A stretch of DNA of 64,000 nt from Massilia oculi. Lineage in GTDB: Bacteria > Pseudomonadota > Gammaproteobacteria > Burkholderiales > Burkholderiaceae_D. Below, piece after piece: positions 29,697 through 39,169 of this stretch; within the stretch, counting starts at the first letter, position 1, and each line of letters opens with the position of its first letter. A model generated the notes under the pieces. That model had not been told where the DNA came from. It saw only the letters and a program-made list of their open reading frames with translations, and did not search any database. The translations under genes were made by a program, and so were the position numbers. The stretch lies in contig NZ_CP029343.1 in NCBI RefSeq assembly GCF_003143515.1, forward strand, positions 3,162,001 through 3,226,000, given 5' to 3'.

Positions 29697-29859
29697 GGCG
29701 CGGGCGTTCAAGGGGCGGGACGGCTGGAAGCCGCCAGTATAAATCCATTCCCCGTAAATAAACCTGTGCGATTTATTTTTCCGGGCATGCGCGAATGCGA
29801 GGAAAAATAATGCGGTGACAACTGGTCGAACTTGGCGGTAGAATCGCGCCCAATCAAGT

Positions 29860-30056
29860 GAATGGTGCCTTCCTGCTCGTCTGCAGGGAGGTGAAACGGG
29901 AAGCCGGTGACGTGCGCGATAACCATCGAGCGCCAGTCCGGCGCAGCCCCCGCTGCTGTAAGCCTGACGACTCCGGTCGAACGCCACTGTGCCCCGCGCA
30001 CGGGAAGGCAGGACCGGGGAAGGAAGACGGCGAGCCAGAAGACCGGCCATCCACGA
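29860..30056 (+). ncRNA. Cobalamin riboswitch
   Basis: The leader contains the hallmarks of the B12 aptamer. These are GGTGAAACGGGAAGCCGGTG (start within 29890-29915), the central CAGCCCCCGCTGCTGTAA segment (29954-29971), AACGCCACTG (29980-29989) and the B12 box GAGCCAGAAGACCGGCC (30032-30048), which fits the published box consensus. It precedes the CobN-like gene by about 190 nt. Adenosylcobalamin binding should switch the operon off. The boundaries are approximate. Confidence 0.95.
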
Positions 30057-30250
30057 TGCATTCGTACGTCCCGGGGTGAGGGCGTGCCTGTTGGTTGTCC
30101 GCTGTTCCTTCTTTTGCTGCTCGTGCTGTCGCCAAGGCGGTCGTGCGCCCTCCTGGCGTGCGCGCAAGCGTCCCTGTTCATCGTGGAAGGATGGCGGCTG
30201 CCTGTTGTCATGCGCGCGTCTAGCGCGCTGCTAAAAGGTCGACGTTCAAC
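30057..30250 (+). promoter_or_regulatory. Riboswitch expression-platform region
   Basis: This leader lies between aptamer and start codon. A GC-only hairpin (GCGCGC at 30212-30217 with GCGCGC at 30223-30228) lies just upstream of an AAAAGG ribosome-binding-like stretch (30233-30238). No canonical stem plus T-tract is seen, so control is more likely at translation initiation than by intrinsic termination. Confidence 0.5.
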
Positions 30251-33200
30251 ATGAACACGCTTCTCCTTGTCCGCATCTGCGCCGTGCTGACGTTCCTGCT
30301 CGCCTGCATGCCGGGCTTCCAGCACGCCAGCGCCGCCACCCTGTTCGCCGTGGTCACCGAGCGCGCCGCGCCGGGCGCCATCGAGGCCGCCCACCGCCAC
30401 CTGGCCAGCCATCCGCGCGACCGCATCCTGCTGCGCACCCCGGCCCAGCTGATGGCGGCGGGCGAGCGCGAAGTGGGACAGTGGATCGCCGGCGCCAACA
30501 CCATCCTGGCGGTGTCGCTGTTCGGCGACCCGGCGCGCCGCATGAAGGATGCCTTGGCGCGCCATGCCAGGCCGGACACCGCCGTGCTGGCGCTGAATGG
30601 CGAGGCGACCCTGAACCTGATGACGCGCTCCCGCCACGGCAGCCTGGCCGGCTTCTCGCCCGAGCTGCTGCGCCAGCTGGCGGGCGAGGCCCCGCCGCCG
30701 GCCGCGCTGCAGGCGGCCGAGCTGGAGCCCGCCGCCCGCCACTGGCTGGCAGCGCGCCGCGTGTGGCAGGCGGGCGGCGTCGACAACACCACGGAGCTGA
30801 TGCGGCACCTGCTTGCGCCAGGCACGGCCCTTGCCGATCCGCAGCCCGAGCCGACCCTGCGCCTGCGCGCGCGACAGCGCGAGCTGCAGGACGCCGCCGC
30901 CTGGGGCAATGCCTCGAAGCTCGGCCTGCAGGACCGGCCGACCGTGGTCGTGCTCGACCTGGCGAACATGGATGGCGTGGTGCCCGCCGCCTTGTGCCGC
31001 CGCATCGAGGAACTCGGCCAGCCCTGCGTGCAGCTGCTGACGCGCTGGGGCGGCGCCTCGCGCGAGGCGCTGGAGCGCCTGCCGCAGCTGGTGGCGCCGG
31101 CCAAGCCGGCCGCACTGGTGGTGCTGCAGGACTTCGTGGTCGGCGCCGCGGAGGGCCGGGCGGCAGTGGAGGAGGCTTTCAAGCGTCTGGACATCCCGGT
31201 GTTCAAGGCGATCCGCCTGTCGGACCGCACCGCGATGCAGTGGCAGCTGTCGCCCGACGGCCTGCCGCCCGACTCGGTACAGTACCGCGTAGCGCTGCCC
31301 GAGCTGCAGGGCATCGGCCAGCCGATGGTGGTGGCGGCCCTGGGCCAGGCCGAGCGCGACCGCCAGACCGGCATCGAGAACCGTCCTCCGGTGCTGCTGC
31401 CGGCCGAAGTCGACCGCCTGTCGGGGCGCGTGGCGCGCTGGCTGGCGCTGCGCGCCAAATCGAACGCCGACAAGAAGGTCGCGGTGGTCTACTACAACCA
31501 TCCGCCGGGCCGCCAGAACATCGGCGCCGACAACCTCAACGTGCCGGACTCGCTGTTCGAGATGCTGCATGCCCTGAAGGCCGCCGGCTACACGGTCGGC
31601 GAGCTGCCGGCCTCGCCCGAGGCGCTGCTCGACATGATCATGGCGCGCGGCGTCAACCTGCCGGAAGACCGCGCCGCGCTGCGCGAGATGGCCGGTACCG
31701 TCAACGGCGTCACGGCCCAGGATTACGCGCGCTGGTTTGCGACCCTGTCGCCGCGGGTGCGGGGCGAGATGCAGGACGGCCTGCTGGGCCGCCTGCATGC
31801 CGACGTGCTGGCGGCCGAGAAGGCCGGCGAGCGCGCGCTGGGCCGCAAACAGGCCGAAACCGTGATCGAGGAGCTGCTGCACCTGGTCGAGGGCGTCGAC
31901 CATCCGCAGCGCGTGCAGGCCACGCGCGACCTGCATGCGCTGGAAGAGGGTTATTTTTCCTGCCTGGACGACGTCAAGCCACGCCCCTGCCAGTCGCTTG
32001 CTCCCCTTTATCGGCGCCTGATCGGCTACGGCATCGAAGGCATGCGCGGCTGGGGGCCGGCGCCGGGCAAGGTGATGGTCGACGGTGGCAGGATGCTGGT
32101 GCCGGGACTGGTGTTCGGCAACGTCTTCATCGGCCCGCAGCCGCCGCGCGGCTGGGAAGTGGACGAGGAACTGCTGCACGCGAACACCAGCATCACGCCG
32201 CCGCACCAGTTCCTGGGCTTCTACCACTGGATCCGCGACCGCTTCAAGGCCGACGCCGTGGTGCACGTGGGCCGCCACTCGACCTACGAGTTCATGCCGG
32301 GCAAGGCCGTCGGCCTGTCGAGCGACGACTATCCGAGCCTCATCGCGAGCGACCTGCCGGGCATCTATCCGTATATCGTCGACGGCGTCGGCGAAGGCAC
32401 GCAGGCCAAGCGCCGCGGCCTGGCCGTCATCGTCGACCACCTGACGCCGCCGCTGGCCACCACGCCGCTGTACGACGAGCTGCTGTCGCTGCGCCAGATC
32501 GTCGAAAGCTTCGAGGCCGCGTCGTCCGAATCGCTCAAGACCCAGGCCGCGCAGCTGATGCGCGAGCGGGTCGTGGCCCTGAACCTGCGCGCCGAACTGG
32601 AAGCGTCGATGTCCGACGTGCTCGAGGTGCGCGGCATCGGTTTCGATGCGGCCGACGACGACCTGCTGGCGCACGAGATCGGCCACTATCTGACCAAGCT
32701 GCAGGAGAAATTCATGCCCCACGGCCTGCACGTCTTCGGCAGGCCGTGGGACCGCGCGTCGCTCGACCTGATGCTCGACTCGATGAAGAAGAGCGGCATC
32801 GACGATCCCGACGTCGCCCATAAACTGCGCGACTCGCCGCGGCGCGAGATGGCGGCGCTGCTGGCCGGCCTGGATGGCCGCTACATCGAGCCGGGCAAGG
32901 GCAACGATCCACTGCGCTCGCCGGAGGCGCTGCCGACCGGCCGCAACTTCCACGCGGTCGACGGCGACATCCTGCCGACCCGCCTCGGGTTTGGGCTCGG
33001 CCGGCAGATGGCGGGCAAGGCCGCCGAGCGCGACAAAGTTGGCGAGGGCAGCGAAGGCATCATCCTGTGGGCCTCCGATGCCGTGCGCGACGAAGGCGTG
33101 ATGGTCGGCTTCGCGCTGGCGATGATGGGCGCCGAGCCGGTGTGGAATGCGCGCGGCATCGTCACCGACGTGAAGCTCACGCCCGGCGCCGTGCGACGCG

Positions 33201-34618
33201 ATGCGGTGGTCACCACTTCCGGCCTGTTCCGCGACCTGTACCCGAACCTGATCCGCCTGATCGACCGCGCCGGCCGGCTGGCGCTGGCGGCGTCGGCGCA
33301 GACGCTGGTCGATCAGGATCCGGGCTTGCGCGAAGCCCTGCAGGCGGCGCTGGCGCCGATCGAGGGCGCAGGGGATGGCAAGGACTGGGGCAGCGAGCCG
33401 GCCACGAACAACCGCGTGGCGCGCGAGTGGTTGACGCGCCAGCGCGCGCTGGCGGCGGGCGGCATGGCGGCCGGCGAAGCAGGGCGGGCCGCCGCGCTGC
33501 GCGTGTTCGGCGATGCGCCGGGCGCCTACGGCACTGGCGTGAACCGCCTTGCCGAGCGTTCGGGCGCCTGGCGCGAGCGCGAAGAGATCGGGCGCGCCTA
33601 CCGCAACCGCATGGGCCATGCCTATGGCCTTGATGCCGAGGGCGCCTCCAGCCACCGCGCTTTCGACGTGGCGCTGGACGGCATCCACCGCACTTATCAC
33701 GGCCGCGCCAGCAATCTGTATGGCCTGCTCGACAACAACGACGCCTTCGACTACCTGGGCGGCCTGTCGCTCGCGGTCGAGACGCGCACCGGGCGCGTGC
33801 CGGACGCGCTGATCCTGCAGCATGCGCAGCCGGGCCAGGCCGACGTCGAGCCGCTCGCCAGCGCCCTGCTGGGCGAGCTGCGCGGACGCTTCCTGAACCC
33901 GGCCTGGCTGCGCCCGCTGATGGACAACGGTTATTCCGGTGCGCGCACCATGGGCCAGGAATTCATCGAGAACCTGTGGGGCTGGCAGGTGACGCGGCCC
34001 GACCTGGTCAAGAACTGGGCCTGGGACGAAGTGAAAGCCGTCTACTTTGATGACCGGCACAAGCTCGGCCTGCCGGAATTCCTGGGCCAGCGTCACAACG
34101 CGCACGTCAAGGCGCACATGCTGGCGGTGTTCATGGTGGCGGCAGAAAAAGGATTCTGGAAGACCGATCCCGAAACCATCCGCCGCATGGGCGGAGAGCT
34201 CGCGCGTCTGGTCGCGGCCAACGGCCTGCCGGGCAGCGGCCACACGGCGCCCGATCACCCGATGTGGGGCTGGCTGGCGCCGCAGCTGGATGGCGCGGAT
34301 GCGCAAAAGCTCGGTGTGACGCTTGCCAAGGCGCGCGGCGAGCTGCTGCCGGCAGTGGCCACATCCGTCCCTTCCGTCGCCGCCCCGGCGCAGCAGGCTG
34401 CAGCGCCCGACGCTGGTGAAGGGACCGAAGCTGCGCCGCCAGCGCCGGCGCCCGCGCCAATGCGCGTCTACGAACTGAAGCAGCAACCCGAACCCGCGCA
34501 GCCTGCCGCGCTGCGCATCGTGCAGGTGCTGGCCATCCTGGCCGCCTGCCTCGCCCTGTTCTCGCTCGGCCTGTGGCGCGGCCGGCACATCCCTCAACCT
34601 CTCAGGAGTCACCCATGA
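30251..34618 (+). CDS. Exported, membrane-anchored CobN-like metal chelatase
   Basis: This 1455-residue homologue of the large cobalt/magnesium chelatase subunit (CobN/BchH, and HmuS-like) handles metal-tetrapyrroles. Characteristic stretches are FGDAPGAYGTGVNRLAERSG (about 1085), the HRTYHGRASNLYGLLDNNDA region, FDYLGGLSLAVETRTGR, and QEFIENLWGWQVTRPDLV near 1240. Unlike cytoplasmic CobN it begins with a Sec signal peptide (MNTLLLVRICAVLTFLLACM, AxA site near residue 29). It ends with an Ala/Pro linker, one transmembrane helix (VQVLAILAACLALFSLGLW) and a basic tail, so the body should sit in the periplasm. The stop overlaps the next start (ATGA). No CobS/CobT partners are present. The reaction (insertion or removal of metal) is inferred only. 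Confidence 0.9.
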   Translation: MNTLLLVRICAVLTFLLACMPGFQHASAATLFAVVTERAAPGAIEAAHRHLASHPRDRILLRTPAQLMAAGEREVGQWIAGANTILAVSLFGDPARRMKDALARHARPDTAVLALNGEATLNLMTRSRHGSLAGFSPELLRQLAGEAPPPAALQAAELEPAARHWLAARRVWQAGGVDNTTELMRHLLAPGTALADPQPEPTLRLRARQRELQDAAAWGNASKLGLQDRPTVVVLDLANMDGVVPAALCRRIEELGQPCVQLLTRWGGASREALERLPQLVAPAKPAALVVLQDFVVGAAEGRAAVEEAFKRLDIPVFKAIRLSDRTAMQWQLSPDGLPPDSVQYRVALPELQGIGQPMVVAALGQAERDRQTGIENRPPVLLPAEVDRLSGRVARWLALRAKSNADKKVAVVYYNHPPGRQNIGADNLNVPDSLFEMLHALKAAGYTVGELPASPEALLDMIMARGVNLPEDRAALREMAGTVNGVTAQDYARWFATLSPRVRGEMQDGLLGRLHADVLAAEKAGERALGRKQAETVIEELLHLVEGVDHPQRVQATRDLHALEEGYFSCLDDVKPRPCQSLAPLYRRLIGYGIEGMRGWGPAPGKVMVDGGRMLVPGLVFGNVFIGPQPPRGWEVDEELLHANTSITPPHQFLGFYHWIRDRFKADAVVHVGRHSTYEFMPGKAVGLSSDDYPSLIASDLPGIYPYIVDGVGEGTQAKRRGLAVIVDHLTPPLATTPLYDELLSLRQIVESFEAASSESLKTQAAQLMRERVVALNLRAELEASMSDVLEVRGIGFDAADDDLLAHEIGHYLTKLQEKFMPHGLHVFGRPWDRASLDLMLDSMKKSGIDDPDVAHKLRDSPRREMAALLAGLDGRYIEPGKGNDPLRSPEALPTGRNFHAVDGDILPTRLGFGLGRQMAGKAAERDKVGEGSEGIILWASDAVRDEGVMVGFALAMMGAEPVWNARGIVTDVKLTPGAVRRDAVVTTSGLFRDLYPNLIRLIDRAGRLALAASAQTLVDQDPGLREALQAALAPIEGAGDGKDWGSEPATNNRVAREWLTRQRALAAGGMAAGEAGRAAALRVFGDAPGAYGTGVNRLAERSGAWREREEIGRAYRNRMGHAYGLDAEGASSHRAFDVALDGIHRTYHGRASNLYGLLDNNDAFDYLGGLSLAVETRTGRVPDALILQHAQPGQADVEPLASALLGELRGRFLNPAWLRPLMDNGYSGARTMGQEFIENLWGWQVTRPDLVKNWAWDEVKAVYFDDRHKLGLPEFLGQRHNAHVKAHMLAVFMVAAEKGFWKTDPETIRRMGGELARLVAANGLPGSGHTAPDHPMWGWLAPQLDGADAQKLGVTLAKARGELLPAVATSVPSVAAPAQQAAAPDAGEGTEAAPPAPAPAPMRVYELKQQPEPAQPAALRIVQVLAILAACLALFSLGLWRGRHIPQPLRSHP

Positions 34619-35058
34619 TCGAAACCCTTTCCTACGCCTGGCTGCACGACGCCGTCAGCTGGCTGCTCGCGCCGTCCCTGGTGGCGCTGCTGGCCGGCTG
34701 CGCGATCGCGCTGGTCGAATCCGGCATCGCCGTCGGCGAACGCTTCCACGGCCTGGCCAGGCTGCGCGACAGCGGCGACGTCGAGGCGGTGCAGCGCATT
34801 GCCCGCCACCGCCTGGAACGCGCCGACCTGCTGGCGCGCATCCCGCCGATGCTGGGCCTGATGGCCACCATCATCCCGCTCGGACCAGGCCTGGCGGCGC
34901 TGGGCGAAGGCGATCCGGCCAAGCTGGCCAGCGCCGTGACCGTCGCCTTCGACGCCACTGTGCTGGGCCTGGTGGCGGGCATCGGCGGCCTGGTGATCGG
35001 CAAGCTGCGCCGCCGCTGGTATGAAGAGACGCTGGACGCCATGGAGCAGCCAGCATGA
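34615..35058 (+). CDS. Small MotA/TolQ/ExbB proton-channel family protein
   Basis: This 147-residue inner-membrane protein has three hydrophobic segments. It carries the ExbB/TolQ signature RIPPMLGLMATIIPLGPGLA and the third helix AVTVAFDATVLGLVAGIGGL. It is shorter than ExbB (about 240 residues) because the periplasmic and cytoplasmic extensions are reduced. It is probably a proton channel that energises the adjacent TonB receptor or the chelatase. The start overlaps the CobN-like stop by 4 bp and its own stop overlaps the DUF2149 start by 4 bp, indicating tight translational coupling and fixed stoichiometry. Confidence 0.88.
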   Translation: MIETLSYAWLHDAVSWLLAPSLVALLAGCAIALVESGIAVGERFHGLARLRDSGDVEAVQRIARHRLERADLLARIPPMLGLMATIIPLGPGLAALGEGDPAKLASAVTVAFDATVLGLVAGIGGLVIGKLRRRWYEETLDAMEQPA

Positions 35059-35372
35059 GTGGGCGCGGCAAGCTGCGGCTATACCGCCACCTCGACGCGC
35101 GCTTCGACCAGAGCGACGAAGATCCGCGCGCCAGCCTCGTCAACCTGGTCGACGTGATGCTGGTGTTCGCCTGCGGCCTGATCGCCGCCATCGCCGGCGC
35201 GCAAGGGGCCCTGAAAACCCCGCAGCCGGTGGAAAAGGGCCGCCAGATCGAGCGTCCCGCCAGCGGCGTGACCCAGGATGGCAGCGGCTACGATCGCGTC
35301 GGCGAAGTCTATCGCGATCCCGAGACCGGCCAGCTGGTGCTGATCGAACCGGTGCAAACCAAGAGCAAATAA
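35055..35372 (+). CDS. DUF2149 family protein (ExbD-like partner)
   Basis: This 105-residue protein has one N-terminal transmembrane helix containing an aspartate (ASLVNLVDVMLVFACGLIAA). A short periplasmic tail follows with GVTQDGSGYDRVGEVYRDPE. The family is uncharacterised, but the layout, with a short cytoplasmic N-terminus and one helix with Asp, mirrors ExbD/TolR, where that Asp carries protons. Its constant neighbour is the MotA/TolQ/ExbB gene. Starts in an ATGA overlap and ends in a TAATG overlap with the receptor gene. Confidence 0.85.
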   Translation: MSGRGKLRLYRHLDARFDQSDEDPRASLVNLVDVMLVFACGLIAAIAGAQGALKTPQPVEKGRQIERPASGVTQDGSGYDRVGEVYRDPETGQLVLIEPVQTKSK

Positions 35373-37456
35373 TGAACGCCATTTTCCAAGCCCGCCCGCT
35401 CGCTGCGGCCATCGCCCTGCTGTGCGCCGCCAGCGCCTTCGCACAAGACCTTCCCACAGTGACGATTCGCGGCGCGGCCGGTGACGAAGGCCTGGCGCTC
35501 GGCCGCCCGAACACCACCGGCAGCCGCCTGGACATCAGCGCGCTCGACCTGCCGGCCAGCGCCGAGAGCCTGAGCGCCGCCACCATCGCCGCCCGCGGCG
35601 ACCTGCTGGTGAAAGATGCGGTGACCCGTAGCACCGGCCTGACCGACAGCAGCTCGCCCGGCAGCGGCATCAGCTATTCGGCGCGCGGCTTCAACGGCAA
35701 CAACTCGATCGCGATCCTGGAGAATGGCCAGCGCCTGCTGGTCGGTTCCACCACCGCGACCTATCCGGCCGATCCCTGGGGCTACGAGACGATCGAGGTG
35801 CTGCGCGGTCCCGGTTCGGTGGTCCACGGCAGCGGCACCACCGGCGCCATCGTCAATGCCGTGCGCAAGGCGCCGCGGCGCGCATCTTCGCTCGAGATCC
35901 TCGGCGGCATCGGTGGCGGCGAGTCTGTGCGCGCCGGCATCGGCGCCACCGGCGCGCTGGGCGAGCAGGGCGCCTTCCGCGTCGACGCTTACGCCGGCCG
36001 CAGCGACGGCTTCATCGACCGCGGCGAGTCCCGCCACGGCAAGATCCTGACCAGCATGACGACGATCCTCGCGCCCGGCGTGACCCTGTACGCCCAGCTC
36101 GATCATGCCGAGCAGGAGCCGATCCGCTACTTCGGCACGCCGCTGGTGAACGGCGGCCTGGCCGAATGGCTGCGCGACGAGAACTACAATGCCGGCGACG
36201 CCGTGCTGCGTTTCGTCGACGACAAGGCCGTCGCGCGCCTGAACTGGCAAGTGGCGCCGAACCTGGAAATCAGCAACGAACTGGCCTACTTCACCTCGCG
36301 CCGCGACTGGCGCAATATCGAGTCGTATGCCTACGACCCGGTGCGCGACGTGGTGGACCGCAGCGACTACATCGGCATCCGCCACGACCAGGAGCAGACG
36401 GCAAACCGCCTGGAGGCGCGCTGGAAGACCGGCGCCAACCAGGTGGTGGCGGGCTGGGAAGCGTCGACCATCAACTTCAAGCACACCAATAACTCGCCCT
36501 ATGGCGGCGCATCGACGGTGGCGCCAAGCGGCTTCGACCCGGGGAGCTTCCGGGACACCCCGGACCCGTTCCGCCCGAACTTCGCGACCGACACCACTAC
36601 CCATGCTTTCTACCTGGAGGATGCCTGGCGCGTGGACGAGCGCCTGCTCCTGACGGCGGGCGCACGCCATGACCGCTACACGATCGACCGCCGCAACCTG
36701 CTGGCCGACAGCGGCCATTTTCAGACCGTCCTGCGCGCCAACTCGGTCCGCGTCGGCGCGAGCTGGAGGCTGGCGCCGGACACCTCGCTCTACGGCCAGG
36801 TCAGCACCGGCAGCGATCCGGTGACGAGCCTCCTGTCGATGACCCTGGCCAACAGCAGGTTCAAGCTGACCGGCGCGCGCCAGGTCGAGGCGGGCGTCAA
36901 GCAGATGCTGGCCGGCGGCCGCGCCGCGTGGACGGCGGCGCTGTACCGGATCAGGAAGGACGACATCATCACGCGCGATCCGGACAATCCGGCGCTGTCG
37001 GTGCAGGGCGGCTCGCAGACCTCGCAGGGCGCGGAAGTGAGCGCCAGCGTGAACCTGGCCCCCGGCTGGCGCATGGATGCCAACGTGGCCTATACCGATG
37101 CCGAGTTCGACGAGCTGGTGGAAGCGGGCAACGTCTCGCGCGCCGGCAATCGCCCGGCCGACGTGCCGAAGGTCTCCTCGAACCTGTGGCTGACGCACCG
37201 CGCCGGCGACTGGCGCACGGGCGCCGGCCTGCGCTACGTGGGCGAACGCTTCATCAGCAATGCCAACACCCAGGCCTTGCCGGGCTACACCACGCTGGAC
37301 GCCTCGATCGGTTGGTCCTTGAATCGCAACGTGCAGCTGCAGCTCAACCTGCGCAACCTGACCGACAGGCTGTATGCGATCACCTCGTATGGTTCGTCGC
37401 AATACCTGCTGGGCGACGAGCGTCATGCAGAGCTGACCGTCCACTGGCGTTACTAA
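35372..37456 (+). CDS. TonB-dependent receptor of the B12-riboswitch operon
   Basis: This 694-residue outer-membrane receptor has a signal peptide ending at FAQ (residue 25), then the TonB-box-like LPTVTIRGAAG. The plug has IEVLRGPGSVVHGSGTTGAI, and the barrel ends in aromatic WRY. The architecture resembles siderophore/haem-type receptors and not BtuB specifically. Riboswitch control suggests a corrinoid, cobalt chelate or another tetrapyrrole as ligand. The ATG overlaps the DUF2149 stop (TAATG). A 156-bp element follows immediately after the stop codon. Confidence 0.92.
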   Translation: MNAIFQARPLAAAIALLCAASAFAQDLPTVTIRGAAGDEGLALGRPNTTGSRLDISALDLPASAESLSAATIAARGDLLVKDAVTRSTGLTDSSSPGSGISYSARGFNGNNSIAILENGQRLLVGSTTATYPADPWGYETIEVLRGPGSVVHGSGTTGAIVNAVRKAPRRASSLEILGGIGGGESVRAGIGATGALGEQGAFRVDAYAGRSDGFIDRGESRHGKILTSMTTILAPGVTLYAQLDHAEQEPIRYFGTPLVNGGLAEWLRDENYNAGDAVLRFVDDKAVARLNWQVAPNLEISNELAYFTSRRDWRNIESYAYDPVRDVVDRSDYIGIRHDQEQTANRLEARWKTGANQVVAGWEASTINFKHTNNSPYGGASTVAPSGFDPGSFRDTPDPFRPNFATDTTTHAFYLEDAWRVDERLLLTAGARHDRYTIDRRNLLADSGHFQTVLRANSVRVGASWRLAPDTSLYGQVSTGSDPVTSLLSMTLANSRFKLTGARQVEAGVKQMLAGGRAAWTAALYRIRKDDIITRDPDNPALSVQGGSQTSQGAEVSASVNLAPGWRMDANVAYTDAEFDELVEAGNVSRAGNRPADVPKVSSNLWLTHRAGDWRTGAGLRYVGERFISNANTQALPGYTTLDASIGWSLNRNVQLQLNLRNLTDRLYAITSYGSSQYLLGDERHAELTVHWRY

Positions 37457-37612
37457 GAGTCTATCCCGGTAGGTGGGAGTCGCTCCTGGCGCGTCTGGCA
37501 AGCGTGCGCTGCGTTGCTCGTCGTTGCATGGCTAGCCATGCGGCCTCCTCGCGCCTTGCTCACGCCCGCCATGCATCGCCATGAGCTTCCCCCCACCTAC
37601 CGGGATAGACTC
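37457..37612. mobile_element. 156-bp palindromic MITE-like element with TAA target duplication
   Basis: The ends are perfect 21-bp terminal inverted repeats (37457-37477 and 37592-37612, outermost bases GAGTC...GACTC). They are flanked on both sides by TAA (37454-37456 and 37613-37615), consistent with a 3-bp target duplication. Inside is a second perfect 16-bp palindrome GCATGGCTAGCCATGC (37526-37541). There is no coding capacity. The left TAA is the receptor stop codon, and the right TAA is directly followed by the GTG start of the PepSY gene. Confidence 0.75.
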
Positions 37613-37615
37613 TAA

Positions 37616-39043
37616 GTGAGTTCCTGGAAGCGTCAGCTCTACTGGTGGCACCGCTGGCTGGGCATCGCAATCGGCCTCCTGGTGCTGCTGTGGTTCGGTT
37701 CCGGCATCGTCATGATGTACGTGCCGTATCCGGAGCTGACGGAAGGCGAGCGCATGGGCTGGCTGGCGCCGCTCGATCCGGACCGTGTGCAGGTGAGCGC
37801 CGCCGAAGCATGGACAGGCAGCGCTGCACCGGATGCGGTGCGCCTGAATACCGTGGCGGGCCGCCCCGCGTGGCACTTCCAGCACGAACGCAGCTGGCAC
37901 TCGGTATGGGCCGACAGCGGCGCGCCGCTGGAAGTGAACTACCTGATCGTCTCGAGCAGCGCGCGCAGCGCGGCCCCCGATGCCCGTTCGCTGGCAGTCG
38001 ACAGGATCGAACTGGACCAATGGACCTTCGGCGCCGTGCGCGCGCACCGGCCCCTGTACCGCGTTGCCGCCGACGATGATGCCGGCAGTGTCCTGTACGT
38101 GTCCGGTCGCACCGGGGAGCTGGTGCGCGACACGACCCGCAGCGAGCGCGCCTGGAACTGGGTCGGCTCCGTCATCCATTGGGTGTACGTGACGCCGCTG
38201 CGCAAGCACGACGAGGGCTGGCGCCAGGCCGTGATGTGGACGTCCGGCGTGGCCATGGTGCTGGCCGTGACGGGCATGGTGATCAGCATCATGCGCCTGC
38301 GTGTGCGGCGCCGTTACGCGGGAGGTCGGATGTCGCCCTATACGGGCTGGCAGGCCTGGCACCACTGGCTGGGTCTCGGTATCGGAGCGCTGGTCATCAG
38401 CTGGCTGTTCAGCGGCTGGTTGTCGGTCGGTCCGTTCGGCTTTCCGTCAGGCGTCGGCGTTACCGCGCACGACCGGCAGGCATTCGCCGGCGGGGCGCTT
38501 GACAGCCACGACCTGGCGCAGGATGCGGCCGCGCTGCTGCGCGCGCATCCCGGCACCCTGGAACTGGAATGGCGCCGCGTGGGCGGCAAGCTGTATCTGA
38601 GTGCCCTCGGCCGCCAGGGACGCAAGCTGGTCGATACGCGCGACAGCGCCGCCGTGCCTGGCGTGCCGAGGGACACCCTGCTGCTTGCCGCGCAAGCGAT
38701 CCGCCCCGGGGCGCCGATGCAGGCGGAACTGCTCACCGGACCGGACGATTATTACTACAGCCATCATCGCCAAGCAGCCTTTCCGGTCTTGCGCGCGCGC
38801 TTCGACCTGCCTGAAGCGCCAGTGTTCTACATCGATCCAGCGCAGGGCCGCCTGGCCGGCTATGTCGACCGCGACAAGCGCTGGGACCGCTGGCTGTTCA
38901 ACGGCCTGCACCAGCTCGACTTCGCCTTCCTGCGCACCAGGCCGTTGTGGGACGTGGTCGTGATCGTCCTGTGCGTGCTGGGCTTTGCGCTGACCTTCAG
39001 CGGCCTGGTGCTGGGCTGGCGGCGCTTGTGCAAGCCAGGATAA
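37616..39043 (+). CDS. PepSY-associated transmembrane protein
   Basis: This 475-residue inner-membrane protein has the PepSY_TM fold. The N-terminal helix is WWHRWLGIAIGLLVLLWFGS with a conserved His. Periplasmic PepSY-like regions, a central helix pair (VMVLAVTGMVISIM, WHHWLGLGIGALVISWLFSG) and a last helix (VVVIVLCVLGFALTFSGLVL) follow. Related proteins next to TonB receptors (for example FpvG/PiuB types) take part in reduction of ferric siderophores at the inner membrane, so a redox role on the imported metal complex is plausible. The start is GTG at 37616, exactly at the border of the inserted element, which leaves no clear Shine-Dalgarno sequence. Confidence 0.87.
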   Translation: MSSWKRQLYWWHRWLGIAIGLLVLLWFGSGIVMMYVPYPELTEGERMGWLAPLDPDRVQVSAAEAWTGSAAPDAVRLNTVAGRPAWHFQHERSWHSVWADSGAPLEVNYLIVSSSARSAAPDARSLAVDRIELDQWTFGAVRAHRPLYRVAADDDAGSVLYVSGRTGELVRDTTRSERAWNWVGSVIHWVYVTPLRKHDEGWRQAVMWTSGVAMVLAVTGMVISIMRLRVRRRYAGGRMSPYTGWQAWHHWLGLGIGALVISWLFSGWLSVGPFGFPSGVGVTAHDRQAFAGGALDSHDLAQDAAALLRAHPGTLELEWRRVGGKLYLSALGRQGRKLVDTRDSAAVPGVPRDTLLLAAQAIRPGAPMQAELLTGPDDYYYSHHRQAAFPVLRARFDLPEAPVFYIDPAQGRLAGYVDRDKRWDRWLFNGLHQLDFAFLRTRPLWDVVVIVLCVLGFALTFSGLVLGWRRLCKPG

Positions 39044-39146
39044 GATGTTTGCGGAGGCGAGATCTTTTTGCTCAAACCTGATACACTCTCCTTAACAACT
39101 AATCCGTGACGCCGGTGTGGCATGACCATCTGGGGCGCGGGGGAAG

Positions 39147-39169
39147 AAGCCGGCGCAAGCCGGTTTTTT
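39147..39169 (+). terminator. Rho-independent terminator at the end of the B12-riboswitch operon
   Basis: An 8-bp stem with one G-T pair (39147-39154 with 39159-39166) closed by a GCAA tetraloop, followed by a six-T run (39164-39169). It lies only 18 nt upstream of the next start codon, so it could also act in the leader of the NYN gene. Confidence 0.75.

Follow-up and report, generated by a model that had tools for sequence, protein, structure and literature searches.

A B12-riboswitch operon of Massilia oculi with a CobN-like chelatase of a separate clade, an ExbB-like/DUF2149 pair and a CrtA/CrpH-like receptor and PepSY protein: a possible role in cobalt insertion into scavenged corrinoids

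What does a cobaltochelatase-like protein do in a bacterium that seems unable to make the corrin ring? The question is raised by an operon of Massilia oculi, located in a stretch of 64,000 nucleotides of contig NZ_CP029343.1 (the window), where a cobalamin (B12) riboswitch precedes five genes for a CobN-like class I chelatase, an ExbB/TolQ/MotA-like protein, a DUF2149 protein, a TonB-dependent receptor and a PepSY_TM protein (Table 1). An earlier note, made from the letters alone, had proposed that these genes form a self-contained machine which imports a corrinoid or another metal-tetrapyrrole and strips or exchanges its metal in the periplasm. Our analysis retains the B12 control and the envelope chelatase, reduces the conserved unit to three genes and leads us, tentatively, to cobalt insertion.

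The aptamer and the five co-directional genes described in the note were confirmed by covariance-model and family searches, the aptamer scoring well above the Rfam gathering cut-off. It is one of three RF00174 matches in the 5.84 Mb, one-contig genome, and it scores 143 bits with our covariance model R1, in whose training set this aptamer was included. That the operon belongs to the B12 regulon is nearly certain, and B12 presumably represses it.

Judged by hydropathy only, the CobN-like protein starts with a signal-peptide-like N-terminus and carries a hydrophobic segment at residues 1423-1441 followed by a basic tail. Its body of about 1400 residues is therefore predicted to be periplasmic and held by a C-terminal membrane anchor, which agrees with the envelope location assumed previously. 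Of 78 called proteins, 69 have a hydrophobic C-terminal segment above the threshold, the remainder being borderline or having a cut or doubtful gene call. We placed the protein in a quick tree of 47 rows, supported by the Shimodaira-Hasegawa-like approximate likelihood-ratio test (SH-aLRT) only and drawn with midpoint rooting, in which canonical CobN, BchH, the Geobacter lovleyi type and HmuS serve for comparison. The window protein and 25 relatives form one branch with a long stem (SH-aLRT 100), separate from all four; the HmuS row is partial and has a long branch, so that the exact placement of HmuS is unsure.

The active site tells the same branch apart. The motif is GRHST in all 26 rows (HVGRHST in the window), against GKHGT in canonical CobN and mostly GTHG in HmuS, BchH and the G. 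lovleyi type. The catalytic His538 of HmuS is kept as His676, preceded by a basic residue as in CobN, and Asp1164, found in 26/26 rows, stands in the column of the axial His1209 of HmuS, where canonical CobN likewise has Asp. The invariance of this class I His and Asp suggests catalysis. The window counterpart of the HmuS motif LSLDHxxEFMGG is LLDNNDAFDYLGG, with Asp in the His1209 column; His254 of HmuS aligns with Glu301, which is invariant in 13 orthologs (the Met79 region lies outside the alignment), and the methionine-rich insertion of HmuS is missing, with a maximum of 7 Met per 120 residues of the window protein.

HmuS orthology was rejected, since HFG(T/A)HG, His1209, His254 and the methionine-rich insertion are all unmatched and the protein lies on another branch of the tree. 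Canonical CobN was rejected as well: the NCBIfam CobN equivalog cut-offs are missed (501 bits against 822 for TIGR02257, and the other listed CobN models too), the branch is separate, and the genome has only three tetrapyrrole methylase (PF00590) domains. As for BchH, an identity also discarded, loci L059, L060, L068-L071 and L074 form one branch, and the best PDB match of L060 is the Mg-chelatase ChlH. On sequence grounds, thus, the chelatase is a clade separate from both canonical CobN and HmuS. It is perhaps the 'BtuS' type, a third CobN-related kind that a 2018 paper credits to Rodionov 2003.

To delimit the unit we turned to its relatives (loci are labelled L and genomes G). A scan of genome contigs gave 274, not necessarily of one clade, from which the best 80 loci were kept; in the protein search, the 120 best of 504 matches were at least 72% identical. 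ExbB and DUF2149 genes come after CobN in 77/80 loci, the other three (L116, L120 and L125) being cut by contig ends, and they do so regardless of the type of receptor nearby. The conserved core unit is CobN/ExbB/DUF2149. The five-gene operon as a fixed unit was rejected, with a PepSY relative near CobN in 16 of the 80 loci, and the single machine of five genes falls with it. The private ExbB/ExbD-like pair, on the other hand, is supported by the PF01618 and PF09919 matches and by the single transmembrane helix of the DUF2149 protein. Its Asp33 is invariant in 44 sequences and aligns with the transmembrane Asp found in a canonical ExbD that the G. lovleyi plasmid encodes, so that it may be an ExbD-type proton path. 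A fold model of the DUF2149 protein (mean predicted local distance difference test score, pLDDT, of 66; predicted template-modelling score, pTM, of 0.28) is too weak to carry weight.

B12 control extends to the relatives. In 76/80 loci a B12 riboswitch stands upstream on the same strand, as found with a covariance model from 24 aptamers that was partly trained on genomes recurring among the 80. Its distance from CobN is at most 700 bases in 48 loci, and in 28 it is assigned by an operon proxy, namely that no annotated opposite-strand gene intervenes, which leaves room for unannotated ones. The weakest scores are those of L147 (19 bits), L136 (23), L128 (27) and L146 (38). The four loci without a same-strand riboswitch are L123 and L142, near contig ends, and L132 and L135, which have one on the opposite strand. 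A check with the Rfam model found the riboswitch in 13 of 15 ortholog loci (none in L042 and L065, with L063 marginal at 33.5 bits) and in a Marinobacter plasmid, to be compared with a background frequency of three aptamers in the 5.84 Mb of the Massilia genome.

The neighbourhood also points to corrinoid salvage. The counts rest on tblastn matches (E 1e-5) taken without individual verification. One or more of ten salvage genes accompany the cassette in 36/80 loci (35 when 100 bits are required) and three or more do so in 21/80 (20 when 100 bits are required). The gene for the cobyrinate a,c-diamide synthase CbiA is at most 4 kb away from CobN in 22/80. The cassette is found within salvage operons of Methylobacillus, Methylotenera, Methyloversatilis, Dechloromonas, Billgrantia, Haliea and others. 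Consistent with this, all but one of the 16 cassette genomes examined contain between two and four tetrapyrrole methylases, compared with six and seven in two genomes with canonical CobN.

The host itself fits the pattern. We found a single CobN-family gene in its genome and three tetrapyrrole methylase domains, so that corrin-ring synthesis seems impossible for it; a CobN acting late in a cytoplasmic pathway was not seen. The second B12 riboswitch of the genome precedes btuB-btuC-btuD and genes for CobO, CobB/CbiA, CobU and CbiB, and the third precedes btuB and btuF. These genes were read from open reading frames, CobB and CbiB scoring over the cut-off and BtuC and BtuF being best matches below it. 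The host is thus a bacterium that salvages corrinoids and already owns ordinary importers. The lack of CobT, the one chelatase partner searched for, was dropped as proof because its positive control failed: PF06213 was found in 0/18 genomes, including two with canonical CobN.

What, then, do the receptor and the PepSY protein bring in? The best PDB relative of the receptor is 9RVQ (291 bits; the next PDB sequence reaches 130), which is CrtA, a receptor for copper chelates from Bordetella pertussis with the PepSY_TM protein CrpH encoded after it (PMC12914433, PMC13038864). The gene order and residues E337 and H358, the latter essential, are shared with CrtA/CrpH, as is the pattern of haem-ligand His residues; the differences are the B12 riboswitch and a pocket of V, F, E, I, H and H in place of Y130, W265, E337, Q356, H358 and R395, four of the six residues being changed. 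By its sequence, the receptor appears related to CrtA but is not classed as CrtA. In the PepSY_TM alignment, H188, H249 and H432 are present in 38/38 rows and H12 in 37/38 (one gap), and these columns are equated with the haem ligands of FoxB following the description in PMC13038864. The PepSY protein is therefore a predicted haem-based periplasmic metal reductase of the CrpH/FoxB kind. Its structural model is weak: FoxB (7ABW) is the top Foldseek match (E 2.5e-3, template-modelling score 0.22-0.27) and is not among the 50 rows listed by VIA-align. The two proteins appear to be a variant form of the CrtA/CrpH pairing, in which an importer of metal chelates goes with a metal reductase, rather than the corrinoid importer proposed before.

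In a second such pair of the same genome, at 1.507-1.511 Mb (L206, 7651-11343), the receptor retains the CrtA pocket at all six positions and no riboswitch is present; this is probably the organism's genuine copper pair. Of the receptors compared, 20 belong to B12-linked or riboswitched loci, and among these Q356 is found in none, E337 in 19 and H358 in 16; among 14 others, Q356 occurs in six and H358 in all. On the receptor tree the B12 label requires at least four changes. In a sample of 399 genomes of the order, eight have a CobN ortholog, 37 the PepSY subfamily and four both. The CrtA/CrpH-like pair is riboswitch-controlled in 4/4 cassette genomes that have it and in 1/16 without the cassette (one-sided Fisher 0.001), the 16 being those examined of 33 genomes that lack the cassette; in the four cassette genomes the riboswitched pair either shares the operon of the cassette or stands at another site. 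In the 16 loci with the pair or the PepSY gene near CobN, five arrangements occur: after DUF2149, PepSY immediately before CobN, divergent, nearby with a riboswitch of its own, or ahead of btuB. The Massilia genome has eight PepSY proteins, for which the chance expectation is about 0.03 per 22-kb stretch. The PepSY subfamily alone was rejected as a B12 marker, given its presence in 37/399 genomes of the order and the lack of a riboswitch at 17/21 scanned loci. At L226 (7752-7951), a second B12 riboswitch lies downstream of a riboswitched receptor/PepSY pair, in a genome with no CobN ortholog at the threshold used.

The reading that we favour, though we would give it somewhat less than an even chance, is that the operon serves B12-regulon corrinoid salvage in a bacterium unable to make the corrin ring, by inserting cobalt into scavenged cobalt-free corrinoid with power from the proton gradient instead of CobS/CobT. 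At low B12 the riboswitch would permit expression of the operon, and corrinoid precursors would enter the periplasm through the BtuB receptors of the genome. There, the anchored CobN-like enzyme would bind a cobalt-free or wrongly metalled corrinoid and insert Co(II). The ExbB-like and DUF2149 proteins would pass proton-motive energy to it, replacing the ATP-driven CobS/CobT ring of cytoplasmic CobN. The receptor would import a cobalt chelate that the PepSY protein would reduce, releasing Co(II) beside the chelatase, and the cobalt-corrinoid would then be imported by BtuFCD and finished by cytoplasmic salvage enzymes. Computation shows the riboswitch and its regulon, the gene families, the separate clade, the conserved cassette, the shortage of methylases and the kinship with CrtA/CrpH, whereas we infer the substrate, which way the metal is transferred, that this metal is cobalt, the energy coupling and repression by B12. 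The more specific claim of a proton-motive-force-driven periplasmic cobaltochelatase, with class I chemistry running on an ExbB/ExbD-like motor rather than an AAA+ ATPase and with its own arm for cobalt-chelate import and reduction, is slightly less probable than that.

Insertion is preferred over stripping because cobalt corrins resist cobalt loss unless the ring is destroyed (PMC6771967); removal of cobalt, as the note had it, is chemically unlikely in a ring auxotroph, and insertion, or the exchange that it also mentioned, fits better. Candidate substrates are known: some purple sulfur bacteria grown without cobalt produce cobalt-free corrinoids (PMC6771967), and the hydrogenobalamin of Chromatium can be converted to B12 through cobalt insertion (PMC7693184). 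Furthermore, a B12-controlled metal-chelate receptor and reductase would suit a cell that adds cobalt, and there would be little reason for them in a ring auxotroph lacking the cassette. The active site also sides with CobN, in Asp1164 against the His1209 of HmuS and in the basic residue ahead of the catalytic His, and in Marinobacter-type loci the ExbB/DUF2149 pair and the anchor of CobN are missing together.

Several observations weigh against this proposal. The cassette is not confined to salvagers: cbiD-type genes lie beside it in Zoogloea (L100, L101, L109) and a member of the Rhodocyclales (L108), with CbiD verified in L100, and one cassette genome (G467) has six tetrapyrrole methylases. 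Nor need the module act on corrins, since relatives serve haem or zinc: haem is the substrate of HmuS (PMC12583661), the CobN-like BtuS1/BtuS2 of Bacteroides fragilis support growth on haem iron and BtuS is predicted to salvage metalloporphyrins (PMC6460266), and PA1922-PA1925 of Pseudomonas aeruginosa is under Zur/zinc regulation (PMC4542158). We found no biochemistry of the GRHST clade in the literature. The metal-supply arm would have to be optional, because 64/80 loci lack a PepSY relative within the fetched stretch. The four-of-four riboswitch comparison spans two genera only, and in one of its 16 counterparts (L212) the sequence breaks off on the upstream side of the receptor; CrtA-like receptors close to that of the window occur without a riboswitch at L207 and L208. 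Finally, the joint loss seen in the Marinobacter-type loci L039 and L064, with no ExbB/DUF2149 pair beside CobN and a CobN without C-terminal anchor, belongs to one lineage and counts as no more than a single evolutionary event. The absence of the pair there refers to the surroundings of CobN, in genome G669 too; the whole-genome PF09919 search was dropped as a test, having missed the cassette copies of G000, G056, G084 and G585.

The strongest competitor, unlikely in our view, is a periplasmic de-chelatase resembling HmuS that takes cobalt or iron from an imported metallo-tetrapyrrole, or clears wrong-metal corrinoids for reuse of the ring, with the PepSY protein supplying the electron. No envelope relative with a characterised function is closer than HmuS, its operon includes ExbB-like and DUF2149 genes (PMC10434189), and the catalytic His is kept in the window protein. 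HmuS requires reduction, and the route of haem reduction by NADH is unknown (PMC12583661), so that a PepSY protein such as those linked in the 16 loci could fill that place. The B. fragilis proteins add the link to haem-iron use, although their case is mixed: a btuS1 btuS2 double mutant grows poorly on haem iron, yet haem de-chelation persists (PMC6460266). Against de-chelation, the features of HmuS fail at His1209, His254 and the methionine-rich insertion, a ring auxotroph would gain little by destroying scarce corrinoid whose cobalt resists removal, and B12 control and salvage neighbours do not point to haem. Removal of Zn, Ni or Cu from a corrin might nevertheless occur, though Ni-corrins are described as exceptionally stable to metal removal (PMC7693184).

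Marginally less probable again is a role with no metal chemistry, in which the CobN-like protein, driven by ExbB/DUF2149, would be a periplasmic factor that captures corrinoid from the receptor and releases it to BtuF, or a remover of the upper ligand, while the PepSY protein would reduce Co(III) and so loosen cyanide or other ligands. CobN does bind the corrin on which it acts, and the two co-purify (PMC7689651). In L126 and L140, moreover, the CobN-like gene stands between btuB and btuFCD. The invariant active-site residues nevertheless suggest catalysis, and BtuBFCD works elsewhere without such a factor.

It is improbable that the ExbB-like/DUF2149 pair merely forms a private TonB system which energises the adjacent receptor, leaving the CobN-like protein as a separate enzyme. 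HmuU/HmuV have been assigned this role, with TonB encoded elsewhere (PMC12583661, PMC10100974), and the transmembrane Asp of DUF2149 is ExbD-like; the pair, however, follows CobN almost without fail, next to receptors that vary in type and are often not recognised at all, and a domain search found no TonB protein among the five operon proteins. An ordinary cytoplasmic cobalt insertion by a divergent CobN of the aerobic pathway is very improbable: the protein shares PF02514, the distal-site Asp and the basic residue before the catalytic His with aerobic CobN (PDB 7C6O, 9UK9), but the signal-peptide-like start and C-terminal anchor predict a periplasmic protein, GRHST replaces GKHGT, the pairing is with ExbB/DUF2149, the CobN cut-offs and branch are not its own, and methylases are too few for a ring pathway here and in 15/16 cassette hosts.

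If cobalt insertion is correct, ring-auxotrophic bacteria could use cobalt-free corrinoids made by others, which would make these a traded nutrient, and a proton gradient could power tetrapyrrole metal insertion outside the cytoplasm. B12-dependent bacteria would then require cobalt themselves, a need omitted from current models of B12 auxotrophy. Apart from function, the analysis delimits a sizeable clade whose members databases label CobN or even HypE and which has no settled place in known B12 pathways, and it suggests, in the PepSY protein, what kind of reductant might serve HmuS-type enzymes.

How new is this system? B12-linked envelope CobN-like proteins are already known as a kind. Hmu-like operons with a cobalamin riboswitch, for which a role in cobalamin was suggested, have been reported in Bacteroides (B. 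fragilis; PMC10100974), so the combination is not as unprecedented as first thought; the excerpt does not mention a CrtA/CrpH-like pair or the GRHST signature there, and BtuS1/BtuS2 were compared by description only. The parallel with the hmu operons of Bacteroidota (HmuS, PDB 9D26) holds for the kinds of genes (class I chelatase of the envelope, MotA/TolQ/ExbB-like protein, DUF2149 protein and TonB receptor), as well as for the catalytic His and a predicted C-terminal helix (PMC10100974). It does not hold for the chelatase itself, which lies outside the HmuS branch with Asp for the distal His and Glu for His254, or for the control, exerted by a riboswitch rather than by iron. The authors of the HmuS study consider most of the remaining superfamily not reliably annotatable (PMC12583661). 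PA1922-PA1925, with a receptor, a CobN-like and an ExbD-like protein, has the same kinds of genes under Zur (PMC4542158).

The cobN-exbB-exbD-tonB cluster on plasmid pSZ77/pGLOV01 of Trichlorobacter (Geobacter) lovleyi has a CobN without CobS/CobT near TonB, ExbB/DUF2149 and B12 genes, of unknown role (PMC3403914), with two riboswitches upstream; this CobN-like protein belongs to another branch, with GTHGT, and is by score nearer HmuS. For Chlorobaculum tepidum, an earlier speculation had cobalt inserted into exogenous cobalamin (related in PMC8620254). Among the papers listed in our literature searches, we found none on the GRHST branch or its cassette in corrin-salvage operons of Pseudomonadota, nor on a link of the cassette to CrtA/CrpH-like pairs or on energy coupling of the chelatase; Rodionov 2003 may cover part of this.

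The layout of the operon is given in Table 1.

Table 1 Features of the operon in the window, with positions counted from its first nucleotide.
Feature	Position	Strand	Evidence
Cobalamin riboswitch aptamer (RF00174)	29846-30065	+	cmscan 115.5 bits against gathering cut-off 31.5, E 3e-28
CobN-like class I chelatase, 1455 residues	30251-34618	+	PF02514, 811 bits
ExbB/TolQ/MotA-like proton-channel subunit	34615-35058	+	MotA_ExbB PF01618, 34.4 bits against cut-off 22.9
DUF2149 protein, ExbD-like	35055-35372	+	PF09919, 36.1 bits against cut-off 27.1
TonB-dependent receptor, divergent CrtA relative	35372-37456	+	PF00593, PF07715
Inverted-repeat element, 156 bp, flanked on both sides by TAA	37457-37612		inverted repeat
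PepSY_TM protein, CrpH/FoxB-like	37616-39043	+	PF03929, 42.6 bits against cut-off 28.8
Candidate intrinsic terminator	39150-39169	+	5 G-C pairs, loop of 4, T6; identified by eye

The tight overlaps described before apply to the first four genes (CobN-like to receptor), by 1-4 bases, and not to the PepSY gene, which follows after a spacer of 159 bases because a 156-bp inverted-repeat element is inserted there. The element sits exactly between the receptor stop and the PepSY start, is absent from the same junction in Massilia arenae and M. timonae (L079, L090), and may weaken PepSY expression in this strain. The terminator can be drawn by eye as a candidate stem that the terminator scanner did not list; the region has two terminator-like sites, fewer than its shuffles (4.6). 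A promoter-like match lies at 29815-29844, with a chance expectation of 0.7 such matches in the region, and the leader folds no better than its shuffles (z 0.56), which gives no support for a defined expression platform.

Some observations concern the relatives. CobN-like proteins of a different branch (GTHGT) with ExbB/DUF2149 occur at L040 and L050-L052, with a B12 riboswitch at L040, L051 and L052 and B12 genes around L050. B12 systems have probably recruited CobN-like proteins more than once. In Zoogloea (L100, L101), two CobN/ExbB/DUF2149 cassettes from different branches follow one another. On an Azospirillum plasmid (L077, 3164-8220), a CobN-like/ExbB/DUF2149 cassette with TDH at the distal site, like the DH of HmuS, is followed by a B12 riboswitch that precedes a gene for an ATP-binding cassette (ABC) substrate-binding protein. 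Lastly, a membrane protein of about 190 residues with no NCBIfam match, possibly BtuM, recurs near the cassette in 10 loci (e.g. L110, 6537-7106, and L044, 12943-13512).

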